Shown one piece after another: positions 10,455 to 22,130 of a stretch of 64,000 bases of DNA (position 1 is the stretch's first letter; every line of letters starts with the position of its first letter). The translations under genes were made by a program, and so were the position numbers. The notes below the pieces were generated by a model. The model searched no databases and was not told the origin of the DNA. It was given only the letters and a program-made list of their open reading frames with translations. The stretch spans positions 310,001 to 374,000 of the forward strand of contig NZ_JAUSSG010000002.1 in the NCBI RefSeq assembly GCF_030812215.1. The letters are read 5' to 3'. This DNA is from Variovorax boronicumulans (GTDB lineage Bacteria > Pseudomonadota > Gammaproteobacteria > Burkholderiales > Burkholderiaceae_C).

Positions 10455-11114
10455 TCACTCGGAACGCCCTGGGGCAAAAAGGTAGCGCGCCTGCCAATGC
10501 GCTGCGAGTTGCTGCGCACGGTGCAGCGGCACGCGCGCCGCTTCGAAATCGACCACGCAGGCAAAGTCGGCCGCTTCGGGCCGCGCGGGGCGCTCGCTGC
10601 TGCGGCCATCGGTGAGGAGCCACAGCCAGCGCTGGCGTGCCGCGCTGTGCGCCAGCAACTGCTCGGCGCGCTGCACGCCGAGCGCGAGCGGCGTGCCGCC
10701 ACCGGCGGCGATGGGCGCGATCCAGTCGTCGTTCCAGGCGCTGGCGCGGCGCGGCGGCAGGCGCAGCTCGACCACCTCGCCGGCAAAGCACAGCAGCGCC
10801 ACATGGTCGCGCCGCTGGTAGGCCTCTTCCATCAACGACAGCAGCAGGCCCTTGGCGCGCGCGAGGTTGCCGTCGTTGCGCATCGAGGCGGAACAGTCGA
10901 GCAAGAAGCAATGCAGCGCGCCGCTGCGGGCCTGCAGCGGGCGGCGGCGCAGGTGCTCCGCGCGCAGCGTATCGGCGCCGCGATTCGCGAGCGTGCGCGG
11001 CCAGTCGAGTGCGGCACCCTGCGATGCGGCACCGTGCCACGCGTCCCTTTGCCTGCCCTGCCTCCAGTCGCCCTGGCGTGCGCCAGCGGGTGCGGCGTTC
11101 CGGAGGCTCAGGCT
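10455..11114 (-). CDS. chlD: ChlD-type VWA domain, -1 frame extension of chlI
   Basis: This 219-codon frame has no ATG, GTG or TTG ahead of the VWA domain. It is read from the ChlI gene by a -1 shift at an A7 run, giving a 574-residue ChlI-VWA protein, the medium subunit of a CobN-type cobalt chelatase. The VWA domain has a full MIDAS: DCSAS (residues 73-77 of this part), GGGT (138-141) and TDG (168-170). VWA subunits bridge the AAA+ ring and the large chelatase subunit. A rare CTG start (CTGA overlap) is the main alternative. Confidence 0.75.
   Translation of the reverse strand, partial: SLSLRNAAPAGARQGDWRQGRQRDAWHGAASQGAALDWPRTLANRGADTLRAEHLRRRPLQARSGALHCFLLDCSASMRNDGNLARAKGLLLSLMEEAYQRRDHVALLCFAGEVVELRLPPRRASAWNDDWIAPIAAGGGTPLALGVQRAEQLLAHSAARQRWLWLLTDGRSSERPARPEAADFACVVDFEAARVPLHRAQQLAAHWQARYLFAPGRSE
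11060..11107 (-). promoter_or_regulatory. stem-loop downstream of the chlI/chlD slippery site
   Basis: On the mRNA strand GCCTCC (11107-11102) pairs with GGAGGC (11065-11060), CGCC (11097-11094) with GGCG (11072-11069), and CTGGC with GCCAG around a GCAC loop (11086-11073). The structure starts 6 nt after the A7 heptamer, the spacing typical of stimulatory elements for -1 frameshifting. The pairing is read by eye and the energy is not computed. Confidence 0.6.
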
Positions 11115-12178
11115 TTTTTTGGGGTGGCCTGCTGGGCGGTGTGCGAAGGGATCAGCGGGCGCAGCGGCTTGACGCGTTCGATGCCCACGGGCTCGGGAGG
11201 CATGGCGCCCCAATCCTGGTCGCCTGCGTTGTGATGGCCGGTGCCGCTTGTGTCCGGCGCGCGCTGGGCGTTGGGGGTTGCAGGCGCCGACGCAGCGCCT
11301 TCCGCTTGCGGCTTGCGGCGATGCAGCAGCACGGCTTCGGCCACGCGCTGCACATGGTCGGGCGTGATATCCGCCGCGCCCTCCCAGGCAGCAAGCGCGC
11401 GCGCCGAGCGCAGCATCACGAGATCGGCGCGCAGCCCGTCGACCTGCGACGCGATGCACAGCGCGCCGACGGCTTCGTGCACGTCATCGCCGTAGGGCAG
11501 CGCGGATGCATCCGCGACGATGGCACGCGCCTTGATGAGCGCGGCCGCAAGCGCAGCCTCGGCCCCTGCATGCTTCGCGCGAAAGCCCTGCGGATCGGTG
11601 TCGAACGCGAGCCGCGCGCGCACGATGGCCTGCCGTTGGGCGGCATCCTCGATGTTGTGCAGCTGCACGCAGAGGCCGAAGCGGTCGAGCAGTTGCGGGC
11701 GCAGCGTGCCCTCCTCCGGGTTCATGGTGCCCACGAGCACGAAGCGCGCGGCATGGCGGTGCGAGATGCCATCGCGCTCGACCACGTTGACGCCGCTCGC
11801 CGCCGCATCGAGCAGCGAATCGATCAGCGCATCGGGCAGCAGGTTGATTTCGTCCACATACAGCACGCCACCGTTCGCGCGCGCCAGCAGGCCGGGCGCG
11901 AACTTGATCTCATGGCCCGCCAGCGCCTGCCCGAGGTCCAGCGTGCCCACCAGGCTCTCGAGGCTCGCGCCCAGCGGCAGCGTGACGAAGGGCGCGCCGG
12001 GCAGCAACTCGGCCAGCGCGCGCGCCGCCGTGGTCTTGGCCGTGCCGCGCGGACCTTCGATCAGCACGCCGCCGAGGCCGGGATCGACCGCGGCCAGCAG
12101 CAACGCCTGGCGCAGTTGCGGCTGGCCCGTGATCGCGGCGAAGGGAAAAGGCACCGGCATCGGGGCGGCAGTGGTCAT
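11108..12178 (-). CDS. chlI: ChlI-like AAA+ ATPase, small subunit of cobalt chelatase
   Basis: A 356-residue AAA+ ATPase of the magnesium/cobalt chelatase I subunit type. The Walker A motif is GPRGTAKT (42-49), Walker B is VLYVDE (105-110), and sensor-like VGTMNPEEG and PQLLDRFGL follow. A proline- and alanine-rich linker occupies about 290-356, as found between AAA+ and VWA domains in ChlD. The frame ends PKKA-stop immediately after an A7 run. The ATG overlaps the cobN stop (ATGA), so the subunits are co-translated. It would power cobalt insertion with CobN. Confidence 0.88.
   Translation of the reverse strand: MTTAAPMPVPFPFAAITGQPQLRQALLLAAVDPGLGGVLIEGPRGTAKTTAARALAELLPGAPFVTLPLGASLESLVGTLDLGQALAGHEIKFAPGLLARANGGVLYVDEINLLPDALIDSLLDAAASGVNVVERDGISHRHAARFVLVGTMNPEEGTLRPQLLDRFGLCVQLHNIEDAAQRQAIVRARLAFDTDPQGFRAKHAGAEAALAAALIKARAIVADASALPYGDDVHEAVGALCIASQVDGLRADLVMLRSARALAAWEGAADITPDHVQRVAEAVLLHRRKPQAEGAASAPATPNAQRAPDTSGTGHHNAGDQDWGAMPPEPVGIERVKPLRPLIPSHTAQQATPKKA
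11114..11120 (-). other. A7 slippery heptamer, programmed -1 frameshift site
   Basis: In the ChlI frame the ribosome reads CCA AAA AAA GCC TGA. Both tRNA-Lys in the P and A sites can slip one base back on A-AAA-AAA and keep full pairing; reading then continues AGC CTG AGC CTC into the VWA domain. The zero-frame stop comes one sense codon after the heptamer. Frameshifting that makes both chelatase subunits from one chlD gene has been reported in cobalamin producers. Confidence 0.75.
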
Positions 12179-15100
12179 CGGAGGGTTCCTTCCATCTGCT
12201 GCTCGTGGTCGAGCAGCAGGTTTTCTAACTGGACCTGGTAGTCGCCGGGCGACTGCCAGAGGCCGCGCTGCATGGCTTCGAGCAAGCGGCTCAGCATGTC
12301 GTGCAGCGCACGCGGATTGTGTTGGTTCACGAAATCACGGGTGTCGACATCGAGCACGTAGGCATCGGCCACCATCGCGTACTGGTGGTCGCCGACCACG
12401 CGCGCGGTGGCGTCGAAGCCGAAGAGGTAGTCCACCGTCGCGGCCATCTCGAAGGCGCCCTTGTAGCCGTGGCGCTTGACGCCATCGATCCACTTGGGGT
12501 TGACCACGCGCGCGCGGATCACGCGGCTGATTTCTTCCTTCAGCGTGCGCACGCGCGGCGCCTGCGGGTTGCCGTGGTCGCCGTGGTACATCGCGGGCTG
12601 CTGGCCGCTCAGGTGGCGCACGGCGGCGGCCATGCCGCCCTGGAACTGGTAGTAGTCGTTGGAGTCGAGCAGGTCGTGCTCGCGGCTGTCCTGGTTCTGC
12701 ATGACGACATTCATCGTGCGCAGGCGCCGCACCAGCGCATCGGCCGCGGGCACGCCGTCGCTGCCCTGGCCGTAGGCGTGCGCGCTGCCACCGACGTAGG
12801 CGTTGGAGAGGTCGTTGTCGGTCTGCCAGTCGCCATGGTCGAAGAGCGGCTGCAGGCCCGAGCCGTAGCTGCCGGGCGCCGAGCCGAACACGCGCCAGCC
12901 GGCCTGGGTGCGCGCTTCTTCGGCGGTCACGCCTTCCGCTTCGAGCGCGGCGGCCTCGCGAAGGATGCGCGCGCGGATCGGGTTGCGCTCGGCGTCTTCG
13001 TCTTCCTGCGCCGCGACGGCCTGCACAGCGGCGTCGAACATCTGCACGGCATTGGGAAAGGCATCGCGAAAGAACCCCGAGATGCGCAGCGTCACGTCGA
13101 TGCGCGGACGCCCGAGGCCCACCGTCGGCAGCACCTCGAAATCGACCACGCGCTGGCTGCCCGGCGCCCACTTGGGCCGCACGCCGATCAGCGCGAAGGC
13201 CTGCGCGAGGTCGTCGCCGCCGGTGCGCATCGTGGCCGTGCCCCAGACCGACAGGCCCAGCGCCACCGGATAGTCGCCGTGCTCCTGCAGATGGCGCTCG
13301 ACCAACTGCGCGGCGGACTTGAGGCCGAGCATCCAAGCCGTGGGCGTGGGGATGGCGCGGGTATCGACCGCATAGAAGTTGCGACCGGTCGGCAGCACAT
13401 CGGGCCGACCGCGCGAGGGCGAACCGCTCGGGCCGGGTGGCACGAAACGGCCTTGCAGTGCGCGTGAAAGCTGATGCAGTTCCTGCGCGCCGCAGGCATC
13501 GAGTGCAGGCGCGAGGCTTCGCTCGATGCGGCCCATCACGGCTGCCGCATGTGGCAGGTCGGGCGGGCAAGCGTCCTCTTCCAGCAAGCGCTGTGCAAGA
13601 AGCTCCAGCCGCTCGCGCGTGTCGCCGTGATGCCGCCACGCATCGGCGCTCACCGATTGCAGCAGCGCCGGACGTGCGCCTTGCCACGGCTTGGCCGCGT
13701 CGATATCGAGCGGGTCGAAGGCATCGCCCGGCAACAGGTCCTGCGCCAGCGCGCCCAGCAGCCCGGCATTCGCGCCCATGCCGTCCGCGGACGGATAGCG
13801 CGCGAGCGCGAGCAGCGTGTCGCGCCGCAACCGCGCCTCGGGCGAAGCGCCGAACACATGCAGTCCGTCGCGAATCTGCGTCTCCTTCAGCTCGCACAGG
13901 TACGCATCGACGCGCGCGAGCACCGCATCGTCTTCCGCGCCCGGCATGCCCAGTTCCTCGACCAGATGCTGCGCACGCACGGCCGTGAGGATCTGCGCGC
14001 GCAGCACCTTCGCGCGCCGCGCATCGACCAGCAGCGCGTCGTAGTACTCGTCCACCTGCCGCTCCAGGTCCTGCAGCGGCCCGTGGTTCTCGGCGCGCGT
14101 GAGCGGCGGCATCAGGTGGTCGACGATCACCGCCTGCGTGCGGCGCTTGGCCTGCGCGCCCTCGCCCGGGTCGTTGACGATGAAGGGATAGACGTTGGGC
14201 AGCGGCCCGAGGATCGCATCGGGCCAGCAGGTCTGCGCGAGCGCGATGCTCTTGCCCGGCAGCCATTCGAGGTTGCCGTGCTTGCCCACATGCACGACCG
14301 CGTCGATGGCAAAGGCATCGCGCAGCCAGAAATAGAAGGCGAGGTAGCTGTGCGGCGGCACGAGTTCGGCGTCGTGGTAGCTCGCGTAGTCCGCAGCGCC
14401 CAGCGTGCCGAGTGCGCGTGCGGGCTGGATGCCGACGAACACGCGGCCCAGCCGGAGGCCGGCGATCATGAATCGGCCCTGGCGCAGCATCGGATCCTGC
14501 TCGGGCGTGCCCCAGCGCGCATCGATGGCTTCGGCCATGCCCTCGGGCAGGGCCGCGAGCCGCGCGCGGTAGTCGACAAGCGCGTAGCTCTGCCAGGCGG
14601 GACGTGCGGACCACAGGGCGGGATCGTTCGCGATGCCTTCCTGCAGCGTTTGCATCAGCGCATCGCCGTCGGCCGGGATCGCATCGCCGAGCGCGTAGCC
14701 CTCGGCCTGCATCGAACGCAGGATGGCGATCACCGATGCCGGTGTGTCGAGCCCCACGCCGCTGCCGATGCGGCCTTCGCTGCCGGGGTAGTTCGCAAGG
14801 ATCAGCGCGATGCGCTTGTCCGCCGCCGGCAGGCTGCGGAGGCGGCACCAGCGCCGCGCCAGTTCGGCCACGAAAGCGATGCGATCCGGCTCGGGCTGGT
14901 AGTTCACCACCTCCGTCTGCGTGAGCTCGCAGCGGTGCGACAGCCCCTTGAAGCTCACGGCGCGCGTGATGATGCGGCCGTCCATCTCGGGCAAGGCAAT
15001 CTGCATCGCGATGTCGCGCGGGCGCAGGCCCTGGCTGTCGGCCAGCCAGTCTTCGCGGTTGCCGCCGCTCACGATCACCTGCAGCACCGGCGCATCGCCG

Positions 15101-15987
15101 GCCAGCGCGACGGCTTCGCCTGCGTCGTCCTGCGCGCCCTGCCCGAGTGCCGCGAAGGCGGTGGTGTTGAGCACGAGCTGCACGTCGTGTTCGCTGCAGA
15201 GGCCGCGAAATGCGGAGAGGCACAGCGGATCCTTCAGCGAATCGAGCGCGACCGGCAACGGGTTCAGTCCTTCGGCATGCAGCGCGGCCGCGAGCGCGTC
15301 GAAGGCCGCGGTGTTGCCCGACAGCAGGTGCGACCGGTAGAACACCAGCGCCACCACCGGCGCATCCGCATGCCAGCCGGCGCGCAGGTCATCGATGCCG
15401 GCGACCGTGTGCGCCGCGTCCATGCCGCGCGGCACATGCAGCGCCACCTGCGGCAGGCTGCGCGGCGGCAGCGGCGCCTCGCCGTGCCCGAGGCCATGAA
15501 AGGCCACCGCGCGCAGGAACTGCATCGCATTGCCCGCGCCACCGGATCGCATGTACTGCCAGAGTCGGCGGCTGACCGCACGCGGCACCGTGCTGCGTGC
15601 GAGCAGGTCTTCGTCTTCCTGCAGGTCGCCCGAGAACATCGCGAGCTGCTGGTCCTTGCGCCTGGCCAGCTTCTCCAGTTGCTGCAACCCGTAGGCCCAG
15701 GCCGATTCGGCCCCGAGGTGATCGACCACCACCACGCGCGCATGCTGCAGCACCTCGTCCACATACAGGTCGAGCGAGGCCGGCTGGCGCAGGTACATGA
15801 GGTTGGCCAGCCGCAGCGACGGGTAGCCGGGGTCGGTGGCCGCCAGCGCGGTGCGCGCAGCGGCGAGCAGCGCGAGCGTGGTGTCGGCCGAACTGAGCAC
15901 CACGATGTCGCCCGGCGTCTGGTCGAGCCGGGTGACGACGCTGTCGTCTTCGACGAAGCGACCGGGCTGGGTGCTCAGCAGGTGCAT
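12175..15987 (-). CDS. cobN: cobaltochelatase large subunit CobN
   Basis: A 1270-residue protein of the CobN/magnesium-chelatase H family, which inserts cobalt into hydrogenobyrinate a,c-diamide in the aerobic cobalamin pathway. The diagnostic region HVGKHGNLEWLPGKSIAL is followed by YPFIVNDPGEGAQAKRR. Near the C-terminus are LSNAYVGGSAHAYGQGSDG, RVVNPKWIDGVKRHGYKGAFE and a Q-x-Q-L-E-N-L tail. The length fits CobN. It starts 12 bp after cobW and overlaps chlI by 4 bp. The rest of the corrin pathway is not in the window. Confidence 0.95.
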   Translation of the reverse strand: MHLLSTQPGRFVEDDSVVTRLDQTPGDIVVLSSADTTLALLAAARTALAATDPGYPSLRLANLMYLRQPASLDLYVDEVLQHARVVVVDHLGAESAWAYGLQQLEKLARRKDQQLAMFSGDLQEDEDLLARSTVPRAVSRRLWQYMRSGGAGNAMQFLRAVAFHGLGHGEAPLPPRSLPQVALHVPRGMDAAHTVAGIDDLRAGWHADAPVVALVFYRSHLLSGNTAAFDALAAALHAEGLNPLPVALDSLKDPLCLSAFRGLCSEHDVQLVLNTTAFAALGQGAQDDAGEAVALAGDAPVLQVIVSGGNREDWLADSQGLRPRDIAMQIALPEMDGRIITRAVSFKGLSHRCELTQTEVVNYQPEPDRIAFVAELARRWCRLRSLPAADKRIALILANYPGSEGRIGSGVGLDTPASVIAILRSMQAEGYALGDAIPADGDALMQTLQEGIANDPALWSARPAWQSYALVDYRARLAALPEGMAEAIDARWGTPEQDPMLRQGRFMIAGLRLGRVFVGIQPARALGTLGAADYASYHDAELVPPHSYLAFYFWLRDAFAIDAVVHVGKHGNLEWLPGKSIALAQTCWPDAILGPLPNVYPFIVNDPGEGAQAKRRTQAVIVDHLMPPLTRAENHGPLQDLERQVDEYYDALLVDARRAKVLRAQILTAVRAQHLVEELGMPGAEDDAVLARVDAYLCELKETQIRDGLHVFGASPEARLRRDTLLALARYPSADGMGANAGLLGALAQDLLPGDAFDPLDIDAAKPWQGARPALLQSVSADAWRHHGDTRERLELLAQRLLEEDACPPDLPHAAAVMGRIERSLAPALDACGAQELHQLSRALQGRFVPPGPSGSPSRGRPDVLPTGRNFYAVDTRAIPTPTAWMLGLKSAAQLVERHLQEHGDYPVALGLSVWGTATMRTGGDDLAQAFALIGVRPKWAPGSQRVVDFEVLPTVGLGRPRIDVTLRISGFFRDAFPNAVQMFDAAVQAVAAQEDEDAERNPIRARILREAAALEAEGVTAEEARTQAGWRVFGSAPGSYGSGLQPLFDHGDWQTDNDLSNAYVGGSAHAYGQGSDGVPAADALVRRLRTMNVVMQNQDSREHDLLDSNDYYQFQGGMAAAVRHLSGQQPAMYHGDHGNPQAPRVRTLKEEISRVIRARVVNPKWIDGVKRHGYKGAFEMAATVDYLFGFDATARVVGDHQYAMVADAYVLDVDTRDFVNQHNPRALHDMLSRLLEAMQRGLWQSPGDYQVQLENLLLDHEQQMEGTLR

Positions 15988-15999
15988 GCGGTCAGGCTG

Positions 16000-17064
16000 T
16001 CAGGCAGGAACAGCGGCCAGGCCTTCGATCGCCTTGCGCAGCGCGCCTTCGTCGAGGTCTTCGCCGATGAACACGAGGCGCGTGCGCTGCGCTTCGCCGT
16101 CGCGCCAGCGGCGGTCGAAGTGGTGGTCGAAGCGGCGGCCCACGCCCTGCACCAGCAGGCGCATCGGCTTGCCCGGAATCGCGACGAAGCCCTTCACGCG
16201 GTAGATGGTGTGCTGCTCGACCAGCGCGGCGAGCGCGGCCAGGAGGCCCTCGCGGTCCACGGGCGGCAGGTCGATCACGAGCGAGTCGAACTCGTCGTGG
16301 TCGTGGTCTTCCTCGTGGTCGTGGTGGCTTTCGCGCAGGTGGATCGTGGTTTCGGCCGCCCGGCCCTGGCCCAGCAGCAGCGCGAGCGGCAGCTTGCCTT
16401 CGGTGGCGGCGACGATCTTCACCTCGGGCGGCAGCTCTTCGCGCACCAGTGCCTCGACCTGGGCGCGCGCGGCGTCGTTCATCAGATCGGTCTTGTTGAG
16501 CACCACGAGGTCGGCGGCCGAGAGCTGGTCTTCGAACAGTTCGTGCAGCGGCGATTCGTGGTCGAGGTTGGGGTCGGCGCGGCGGGCGGCGTCGACGGCT
16601 TCGGGGTTCTCGGCGAACTGGCCCGAGGCGGCGGCCGGGCCGTCGACCACGGTGACCACCGAATCGACGGTGAAGATGTTCGCGATGTCCGGCCACTGGA
16701 AGGCCTGCACCAGCGGCTTGGGGAGCGCCAGGCCCGAGGTCTCGATGATCACCGCGTCGATGTCGCCGCGACGCTCGGCCAGCTGCAGCATCACGGGCAG
16801 GAACTCTTCCTGCACGGTGCAGCAGACGCAGCCGTTGGCCAGCTCGTAGAGCGCGCCTTCGCGCTCGTTGCCCTCGTCGTCGCAGCCGATGCCGCAGCCG
16901 CGGAGGATCTCGCCGTCGATGCCGAGCTCGCCGAACTCGTTGACGATCACCGCAATGCGGCGGCCTTCGGCGTTGCCGAGGATGTGGCGCAGCAGCGTGG
17001 TCTTGCCGCTGCCGAGGAAGCCCGTGACGATGGTGACGGGGATCTTGGCGTTGCTCTGTGTCAT
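16000..17064 (-). CDS. cobW: CobW-type metallochaperone GTPase
   Basis: A 354-residue COG0523 GTPase. TGFLGSGKTTLLRH (14-27) is the P-loop, NGCVCC (77-82) is the metal-binding CxCC motif, NKTDL is the guanine-specificity motif, and a histidine/aspartate-rich stretch (ESHHDHEEDHDHDEF) can hold metal. A CobW_C domain closes it. CobW is thought to deliver cobalt to the CobN chelatase, and its position directly upstream of cobN fits. It is in the cytoplasm and under the upstream cobalamin riboswitch. Confidence 0.92.
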   Translation of the reverse strand: MTQSNAKIPVTIVTGFLGSGKTTLLRHILGNAEGRRIAVIVNEFGELGIDGEILRGCGIGCDDEGNEREGALYELANGCVCCTVQEEFLPVMLQLAERRGDIDAVIIETSGLALPKPLVQAFQWPDIANIFTVDSVVTVVDGPAAASGQFAENPEAVDAARRADPNLDHESPLHELFEDQLSAADLVVLNKTDLMNDAARAQVEALVREELPPEVKIVAATEGKLPLALLLGQGRAAETTIHLRESHHDHEEDHDHDEFDSLVIDLPPVDREGLLAALAALVEQHTIYRVKGFVAIPGKPMRLLVQGVGRRFDHHFDRRWRDGEAQRTRLVFIGEDLDEGALRKAIEGLAAVPA

Positions 17065-17168: not shown

Positions 17169-17846
17169 TCAAACGCCGCCGTACAGGCGGCGCTCGACGA
17201 AGACCGTGCCCTGCAGACGACGCCAGCCCTTGGCAGCGGCCAGCACGCCCAGGTCGACCAGCGGCTCGACCAGCACCACGGTCATGTAGGCGGCGCCGAA
17301 GCTGGCGATCTGGCTCAGGTTCTCGAGGCCCGTGCCGCGCCCGTACAGCGCCCAGAAGCCGACCCAGACCACGATGCCGCCCTGGTAGGCCACCGACAGC
17401 TTGAAGGCCTGCTGGTAGCTCAGGTCCACATAGGCCACGTTCTCGGGAATGATCCGCCGTGCCAATGCGGCCGTCGCGAACAGGGGCACCAGCAAGGTGG
17501 TGACGTTCATGCCGAACTGCGGCAGGTCCTGCGGCTCGAAGAACAGGCTCTGGATCAGCAGTCCGCCCGCAAGGCCCAGCGCCGCGGGCGCCAACCCGAA
17601 CACCAGCAGCAGCGTCGTGCCGAGGATCAGGTGCACCTCGGAGACGCCCACGGGATGGTGCGGCAGCACTTCGAAGAAGCAGAACACCAGCGCCACGGCA
17701 ATGGCCGAGCGCAGTGCCAGGGCGACGATGCCGTCTTTCACGACGGTGTCGAAGGCGACCTTGCCCGTGTAGGCCAGCGCGGCGGCGGCCGTCGCATAGC
17801 TGAGGAAAATCTTGGATCCGTCGACTAGACCTGGTTCGATGTGCAT
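17169..17846 (-). CDS. cbiM: CbiM-like cobalt transport permease (ECF S-component type)
   Basis: A 225-residue membrane protein with about six hydrophobic helices. It starts MHIEPGLVDG: the N-terminal Met-His is the metal-binding end in CbiM/NikM proteins, so the start at 17846 is secure and has a strong AGGAGGT site. HHPVGVSEVHLILGTTLLL matches the conserved CbiM His-containing helix. It would carry Co2+ across the inner membrane. The usual partners CbiN, CbiQ and CbiO are not next to it, so it may work alone or use distant ECF components. Confidence 0.8.
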   Translation of the reverse strand: MHIEPGLVDGSKIFLSYATAAAALAYTGKVAFDTVVKDGIVALALRSAIAVALVFCFFEVLPHHPVGVSEVHLILGTTLLLVFGLAPAALGLAGGLLIQSLFFEPQDLPQFGMNVTTLLVPLFATAALARRIIPENVAYVDLSYQQAFKLSVAYQGGIVVWVGFWALYGRGTGLENLSQIASFGAAYMTVVLVEPLVDLGVLAAAKGWRRLQGTVFVERRLYGGV

Positions 17847-17918
17847 CGAGCACCTCCTGTTGTGCACCGCAGTGCGAAAGTTGATTGTTGGTGGATGGGG
17901 TGGATCACGCAAGCGCCG

Positions 17919-21703: not shown

Positions 21704-21832
21704 TCTCCTCCGACCTGCGTCCCCGCAGGCTCCTGACCGAATGAGGACGTCGAGGGAGGCGGCTGAGGGCAGGCCGGTTCGCAGGGGGCGAGGCGGCATG
21801 CCCGGACCCGCACTCCCGCGGCGTCCGACGGC
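21704..21832 (-). promoter_or_regulatory. riboswitch expression platform with possible Shine-Dalgarno sequestration
   Basis: Between the aptamer and the TonB receptor start, the ribosome binding site GGAGGAGA (21711-21704) has a candidate anti-sequence CCTCC at 21759-21755. A hairpin CCTGCG-GGGA-CGCAGG lies just before the binding site. No T-run terminator is visible, so control is more likely translational. The pairing is read by eye. Confidence 0.45.
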
Positions 21833-22087
21833 GGTTGCGAAGGCCGGTATCCGGGCTTGCGGAGCGCTCCGATGGCACTGTGCGTGCGCATCGGAGCCGA
21901 AACCCTCGCCTTCCCACGCCGAAGCGCAGTGGCTGCCGATGCTCGAGAAGAGATCGACGCGAGGTTTTCCAGATCCGCTGACCGTTGCGGGGGCAGCGCA
22001 GGAATGGATGCGTCCGTGAAGACGCAGCGCACCTGCTTCCCGTTTAACCCCCAGGCCATGGAATGGCATGCGGGGCACCTTCGAACC
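21833..22087 (-). promoter_or_regulatory. cobalamin (AdoCbl) riboswitch aptamer
   Basis: On the minus strand the P1 stem forms between GGTTCGAAGG (22087-22078) and CCTTCGcAACC (21843-21833). In between are the conserved GGTGCC, the segment GGGAAGCAGGTGCG, CGCTGCCCCCGCAACGGT, CAGCCACTG and GGGAAGGC. The B12 box AGCCCGGATACCGGCC lies at 21857-21842. All hallmarks are in the right order. It sits in the leader of the TonB receptor-PepSY-cbiM-cobW-cobN-chlID operon, so cobalamin should repress the operon. Confidence 0.93.
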
Positions 22088-22130
22088 GTGCGAGTCTGCT
22101 AATAAAAGATTACAAAACTCGACGGCCGGA

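Follow-up and report, generated by a model that had tools for sequence, protein, structure and literature searches.

The fs-chlD gene of Variovorax boronicumulans probably supplies CobN with both a small and a medium subunit through a -1 slip on the heptamer A-AAA-AAA (A7), a reading based on sequence comparison to which we give a probability of about 0.93. Most ribosomes would read the AAA+ half of the gene and stop at a TGA one codon past the A7, releasing a 356-residue ChlI-like small subunit. Some, aided by a hairpin 6 nt downstream, would slip back by one base on the heptamer and continue in the -1 frame to produce a 574-residue ChlD-like AAA+/VWA medium subunit, and both products would act as partners of CobN, encoded by the adjacent gene, in cobalt insertion. 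The mechanism is already published for this gene family, of which the present gene is a member. Our direct basis is the anatomy of the gene, its conservation, the covariation of the downstream helix and the co-occurrence with CobN; how efficient the frameshift is in this gene, that both proteins are made and that they assemble with CobN are inferred. Programmed -1 frameshifting itself is well supported as the predicted mode of expression.

The features of the locus within the window, the 64 kb stretch of DNA that was analyzed, are collected in Table 1. The ChlI-like frame ends with CCA AAA AAA GCC TGA, and the -1 frame opens with AGC CTG AGC CTC (Ser-Leu-Ser), where the AGC re-reads the last A of the A7. 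The predicted shifted product therefore comprises 355 plus 219 residues, ending at the -1 frame stop at 10455. An earlier preliminary description of this DNA had proposed that the ChlI frame terminates one codon after the heptamer, that the VWA half, lacking a normal start codon, occupies the -1 frame, and that the products are 356 and 574 residues long, and all of this is borne out by the frames: past the A7, the -1 frame has no ATG, GTG or TTG before its 71st codon, a TTG adjoining the VWA metal-site motif.

Table 1 Features of the fs-chlD locus and its neighborhood. Positions are those of the window.
Feature	Position	Strand	Evidence or remark
fs-chlD, whole frameshift gene (0 frame plus -1 frame)	10455..12178	(-)	TIGR02442 matches in both halves
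ChlI-like AAA+ small subunit, 0 frame, 356 codons plus TGA	11108..12178	(-)	PF01078, PF07728 and PF17863 over cut-off
VWA half of medium subunit, -1 frame, 219 codons plus stop	10455..11114	(-)	PF13519 VWA_2 over cut-off
Slippery heptamer A-AAA-AAA (A7)	11114..11120	(-)	Kept exactly by 97 of 100 distinct loci
0-frame stop TGA, one codon beyond A7	11108..11110	(-)	Among 97 A7 loci: TGA 93, TAG 4
5' arm of 8 bp helix, 6 nt past A7	11100..11107	(-)	Fold and covariation
3' arm of 8 bp helix	11060..11067	(-)	Fold and covariation
Inner tiers of 4 bp (11094-11097 paired with 11069-11072) and 5 bp (11082-11086 paired with 11073-11077)	11069..11097	(-)	Predicted fold
cobN	12175..15987	(-)	TIGR02257, 1558 bits (cut-off 822); end overlaps fs-chlD start by 4 nt
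cobW	16000..17064	(-)	TIGR02475, 502 bits (cut-off 332)
CbiM-like cobalt uptake membrane protein	17169..17912	(-)	PF01891
Cobalamin riboswitch, preceding the run of genes on this strand	21825..22096	(-)	RF00174, 84.6 bits (gathering 31.5)

A single fused model, TIGR02442 (Cob-chelat-sub), covers the ChlI-like AAA+ frame and then the VWA frame, the best stretches being model positions 87-329 for the N-terminal half and 383-585 for the C-terminal half; each half alone scores below the whole-protein cut-off. The two frames stand in a -1 relation with an A_AAA_AAR motif at their overlap. The NCBIfam hits of either half (E 0.001) include no CobS or CobT model, so the gene does not belong to those families. 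The A7 is the only such run on either strand of the window, and by itself it is not significant, since at least one run of this kind occurred in 34 of 100 shuffles.

The significance of the site comes from its relatives, which were drawn from 101 genomes of the genus, 150 of the family and 399 of the order, together with the best 80 of 380 relatives from a named genome collection; at the order level, 30 of 57 matches were taken. From 174 loci, 35 were excluded for a missing half or a ChlI half less than 50% identical, and 39 were repeats of a junction, leaving 100 distinct loci. Among the excluded are 11 in-frame fused genes (L066, L067, L068, L070, L071, L073, L074, L076, L080, L081, and L083), one gene represented twice (L059 and L089) that carries the A7, the TGA and the stem, and L114, which has only the VWA half. 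An exact A7 that begins on the third base of a codon and is followed by a stop one codon later was found in 97 of the 100 loci, a figure that describes close relatives and not all homologs, as the in-frame fused order-level matches, which lack the signal, fall below the identity limit. The run is never longer than seven. Both slip lysines are encoded by AAA in every case (194 of 194 codons), whereas elsewhere in the same genes AAG is used 536 times and AAA 160 times. The three loci without the A7 are L017, with A6; L170, a Pseudomonas gene with A-AAA-AAG; and L125, an in-frame fusion. L017 comes from a Variovorax draft of 420 contigs, and its A6 is either a sequencing error or a real loss, the two being indistinguishable. 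The gene is uncommon in the family sample, where the VWA half was detected in 3 of 150 genomes; in the order sample it was detected in 57 of 399, mostly as weak matches.

A one-base error, or decay of a fused gene, is a common origin of split genes, and one related locus, L125, does look decayed. Such an origin has a negligible chance of being correct here, given that 97 of the 100 distinct loci, which come from many genera and assemblies, share the frame relation and the A7. Sequencing error, which the preliminary description had listed as a possible objection, is excluded by this conservation.

The three-tier stem-loop that had been proposed to start 6 nt past the heptamer was recovered: the 8 bp arm begins there, and minimum-energy folding of the 48 nt element yields the stem (8, 4, and 5 bp), at -27.0 kcal/mol. 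Equal stability was reached in 1 of 200 shuffles (z -2.81) for the 48 nt element, and a longer stretch of 126 nt folds no better than its shuffles (z -0.39). Covariation provides the second line of evidence for a downstream RNA structure. In 96 testable loci (L146 was omitted for an N in the downstream stretch), all eight positions of the outer helix pair in 82, seven in 12, and six in 2, so that at least seven of eight are paired in 94 of 96 loci (98%). When loci with differing 5' arms exchanged their arms (7538 combinations), full pairing fell to 7% and pairing of at least seven positions to 54%; when the start of the arm was moved by 3-30 nt, at least seven pairs formed in 19-51% of loci, compared with 98% at the observed place. 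Pair 4 of the helix is T-A in 42 loci, A-T in 41, C-G in 7, G-C in 2, and G-T or T-G in 4; pair 5 is C-G in 63, T-A in 30, and T-G in 3. Both sides change at positions 5 and 8 also. These counts are of sequences from related loci and not of independent events, and they cover the outer helix alone. Comparison of the heptamer and stem among relatives, the check that had been proposed at the outset, thus came out with heptamer, phase and stop spacing conserved and the stem covarying, which argues for a -1 frameshift on the A7 as the probable interpretation.

The fused protein could also arise without ribosomal shifting, if RNA polymerase slipped on the A7 and produced mRNAs with an altered number of A residues. 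A7 is shorter than the runs usually tied to efficient polymerase slippage. The site is nevertheless a homopolymer, and in other chlD cassettes longer runs gave more product (PMC3711429). Since the run is exactly seven in all 97 A7 loci and never longer, and ribosomal shifting is in keeping with the conserved stem 6 nt downstream, we regard polymerase slippage as very unlikely.

Another alternative is that the locus consists of two separate overlapping genes, with the VWA protein made from an internal or coupled start and no frameshifting. Upstream, the ChlI coding region contains a GTG and a TTG in the -1 frame, at -349 and -103 nt relative to the 0-frame stop, respectively. Between the A7 and the W-x-x-T-L motif, or over 45 codons in loci where no such motif was detected, 41 of the 97 A7 loci have an ATG, GTG or TTG in the -1 frame, with ATG in 19, and in seven loci of the genus (L044-L050) a purine-rich GGAGG-like element precedes the A7. 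The remaining 56 loci, the window included, have no start codon in that interval, and internal starting leaves unexplained the fixed A7, its phase, the exclusive use of AAA for the lysines and the covarying stem, so that we consider it highly improbable. By the motif list used, a Shine-Dalgarno-like element upstream of the A7 is present in 11 of 97 loci, seven of which are L044-L050, and such an upstream stimulator is absent in the window. In L044-L050 the GGAGG-like element begins 14-16 nt upstream of the A7, and in some of these loci a start codon overlaps the stop; the element is possibly an extra stimulator.

The genomic context links the gene to CobN. Beyond the overlapping cobN, the same strand carries cobW, the CbiM-like gene, a PepSY gene and a gene for a TonB-dependent receptor, and the cobalamin riboswitch heads this run, which may constitute one transcript. 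Among the 101 genomes of the genus, fs-chlD is present in 43 of the 44 with CobN over cut-off and in none of the 57 others; the sole exception, G247, is an assembly of 630 contigs in which CobN is matched in part. The V. boronicumulans genome has CobN together with fs-chlD and no separate gene for a chlI-type small subunit; after fs-chlD itself, the best ChlI-like match has an E value of 1.4e-6, and a CobS-like gene is found elsewhere. Assignment as a magnesium chelatase D subunit is not favored by a test made on the family of the neighbor alone, which passes the CobN model and, at 671 bits, falls below the BchH cut-off of 829.

It is conceivable that fs-chlD works with a magnesium chelatase, or with no large subunit at all, rather than with CobN. 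In some anaerobes fs-chlD occurs without any large subunit (PMC9227772), and the V. boronicumulans genome has a second CobN-like gene and a CobST-like pair. This is quite unlikely in view of the 4 nt overlap with cobN, the co-occurrence with CobN (43/44 against 0/57), the same-strand riboswitch, cobW and CbiM-like gene, and the distribution of the CobST-like pair, which follows another gene. The proposal that the products serve CobN accordingly stands as regards the link, through the overlap, the riboswitch and the 43 of 44 genomes; that CobN would need both of them is weakened by six genomes with a fused gene, discussed below. The second CobN-like protein is encoded at 5914-10317 of L088 (G000:C1:93000-110000), where its gene adjoins a CobD/CbiB gene and a MotA/ExbB-like gene.

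The CobS-like and CobT-like genes lie together at G000:C3:563541-566167 (L087, G000:C3:557000-573000), and both score under the curated cut-offs. Beside them, at 567261-569030 of G000:C3, is a putative xsc gene (sulfoacetaldehyde acetyltransferase). The pair was found in 50 of the 101 genomes of the genus, which are exactly the 50 with the xsc-like gene. CobN is over cut-off in 27 of these 50 and not in the other 23, and the pair is missing from 17 of the 43 fs-chlD genomes. The pair could in principle serve CobN; because it tracks xsc and not CobN, it is a poor candidate for the CobN partner, and its association with xsc suggests a role in sulfonate metabolism rather than in cobalt chelation. 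Among the open-access papers searched, one, on methanogens, mentions both sulfoacetaldehyde and cobaltochelatase (PMC3087415).

More distant relatives bear on whether a separate small subunit is required. In six genomes of the order an in-frame fused gene adjoins a CobN that is over cut-off when neighboring pieces of its frame are counted together: G478, G504, G423, G571, G614, and G409, with the fused genes at loci L067, L068, L070, L073, L083, and L076. No other ChlI-like gene was detected in them at E 1e-10, CobS matches were weak or absent, and none of the six loci has an A-run of at least six in the linker. Eight in-frame fused relatives were checked for A-runs (L066, L067, L068, L070, L071, L073, L076, and L083), and in seven the linker contains no run of at least six; a single A6 lies in the linker of L071, a ChlD-like gene of low identity, and another within the AAA+ part of L083. 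Because these six CobN genomes have only an in-frame fused gene, a separately released small subunit may not be required: the fused protein may be enough by itself, or a small subunit may be produced by another route. A closer relative, L125 from Acidovorax sp. SUPP3334, also has an in-frame fusion without the A7, and its next best ChlI-like match has an E value of 6e-9. It may be decaying, because its cobN reading frame is interrupted. The preliminary description had regarded in-frame fused relatives without an A7 as evidence against frameshifting; such genes do occur, in the six distant genomes and in L125, and the frameshift reading of the genes that keep the A7 stands. A need of CobN for both products is a tentative reading, and the fused-gene genomes suggest that a separate small subunit may be dispensable or made in another way. 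In our opinion, the xsc-linked CobST-like pair and the relatives that have a fused gene and no small subunit are more interesting than the frameshift finding itself.

That chlD frameshifting had been reported before, as the preliminary description stated, is correct (PMC3711429, PMC9227772). Antonov 2013 described a -1 shift in 23 magnesium chelatase genes from six genera, one of them Delftia, and measured frameshifting in E. coli of 63, 40, and 10% for A11, A9, and A7 cassettes from three family members (PMC3711429). Kuznetsov 2022 treats fs-chlD as a source from which CobN obtains both subunits (PMC9227772). According to a review (PMC5009743), the A_AAA_AAR motif is under purifying selection, the sequence of a potential structure shows no strong conservation, and a role of cations in this structure is suggested as a possibility. 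The Variovorax gene shares with the published genes the overlapping AAA+ and VWA frames, the -1 relation, the A_AAA_AAR motif and the downstream structure, and differs from them in nothing of kind; Delftia, named by Antonov 2013, is also represented among the relatives here. We found no open-access paper that brings together chlD, frameshifting and Variovorax, and no measurement of frameshifting in Variovorax in the open-access literature. A further study, Antonov 2020 (MBE), reportedly concerns fs-chlD genes with programmed -1 frameshifting. Relative to Antonov 2013, Kuznetsov 2022 and the review, the present analysis adds the covariation of the helix over 96 loci, the fixed stop spacing over 97 and the count of co-occurrence with CobN in one genus. 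The shift could conceivably be a control point, its efficiency being set by cobalt, another divalent cation or the cobalamin state and in turn setting the ratio of small to medium subunit, which at present we think unlikely.

The locus is a clean and strongly conserved case of two subunits of an AAA+ machine encoded by one gene, and a warning that annotation splits frameshift genes such as fs-chlD. In dnaX of E. coli, two lysine codons on an A-rich heptamer and a downstream stem likewise yield a long and a short AAA+ subunit from one gene; the shifted product is the short one in dnaX, whereas in fs-chlD it would be the long one. CobS and CobT of the aerobic cobaltochelatase are expected to have the same roles as the fs-chlD products and belong to different families, and the pair in this genome, adjoining xsc, has no tie to CobN in the genus. 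The same two subunits are encoded by two genes in the bchI/bchD and chlI/chlD systems, an arrangement also seen in four genomes of the genus (L051-L054), which have separate low-identity ChlI-like and ChlD-like genes, possibly photosynthesis genes, together with CobN matches under cut-off.
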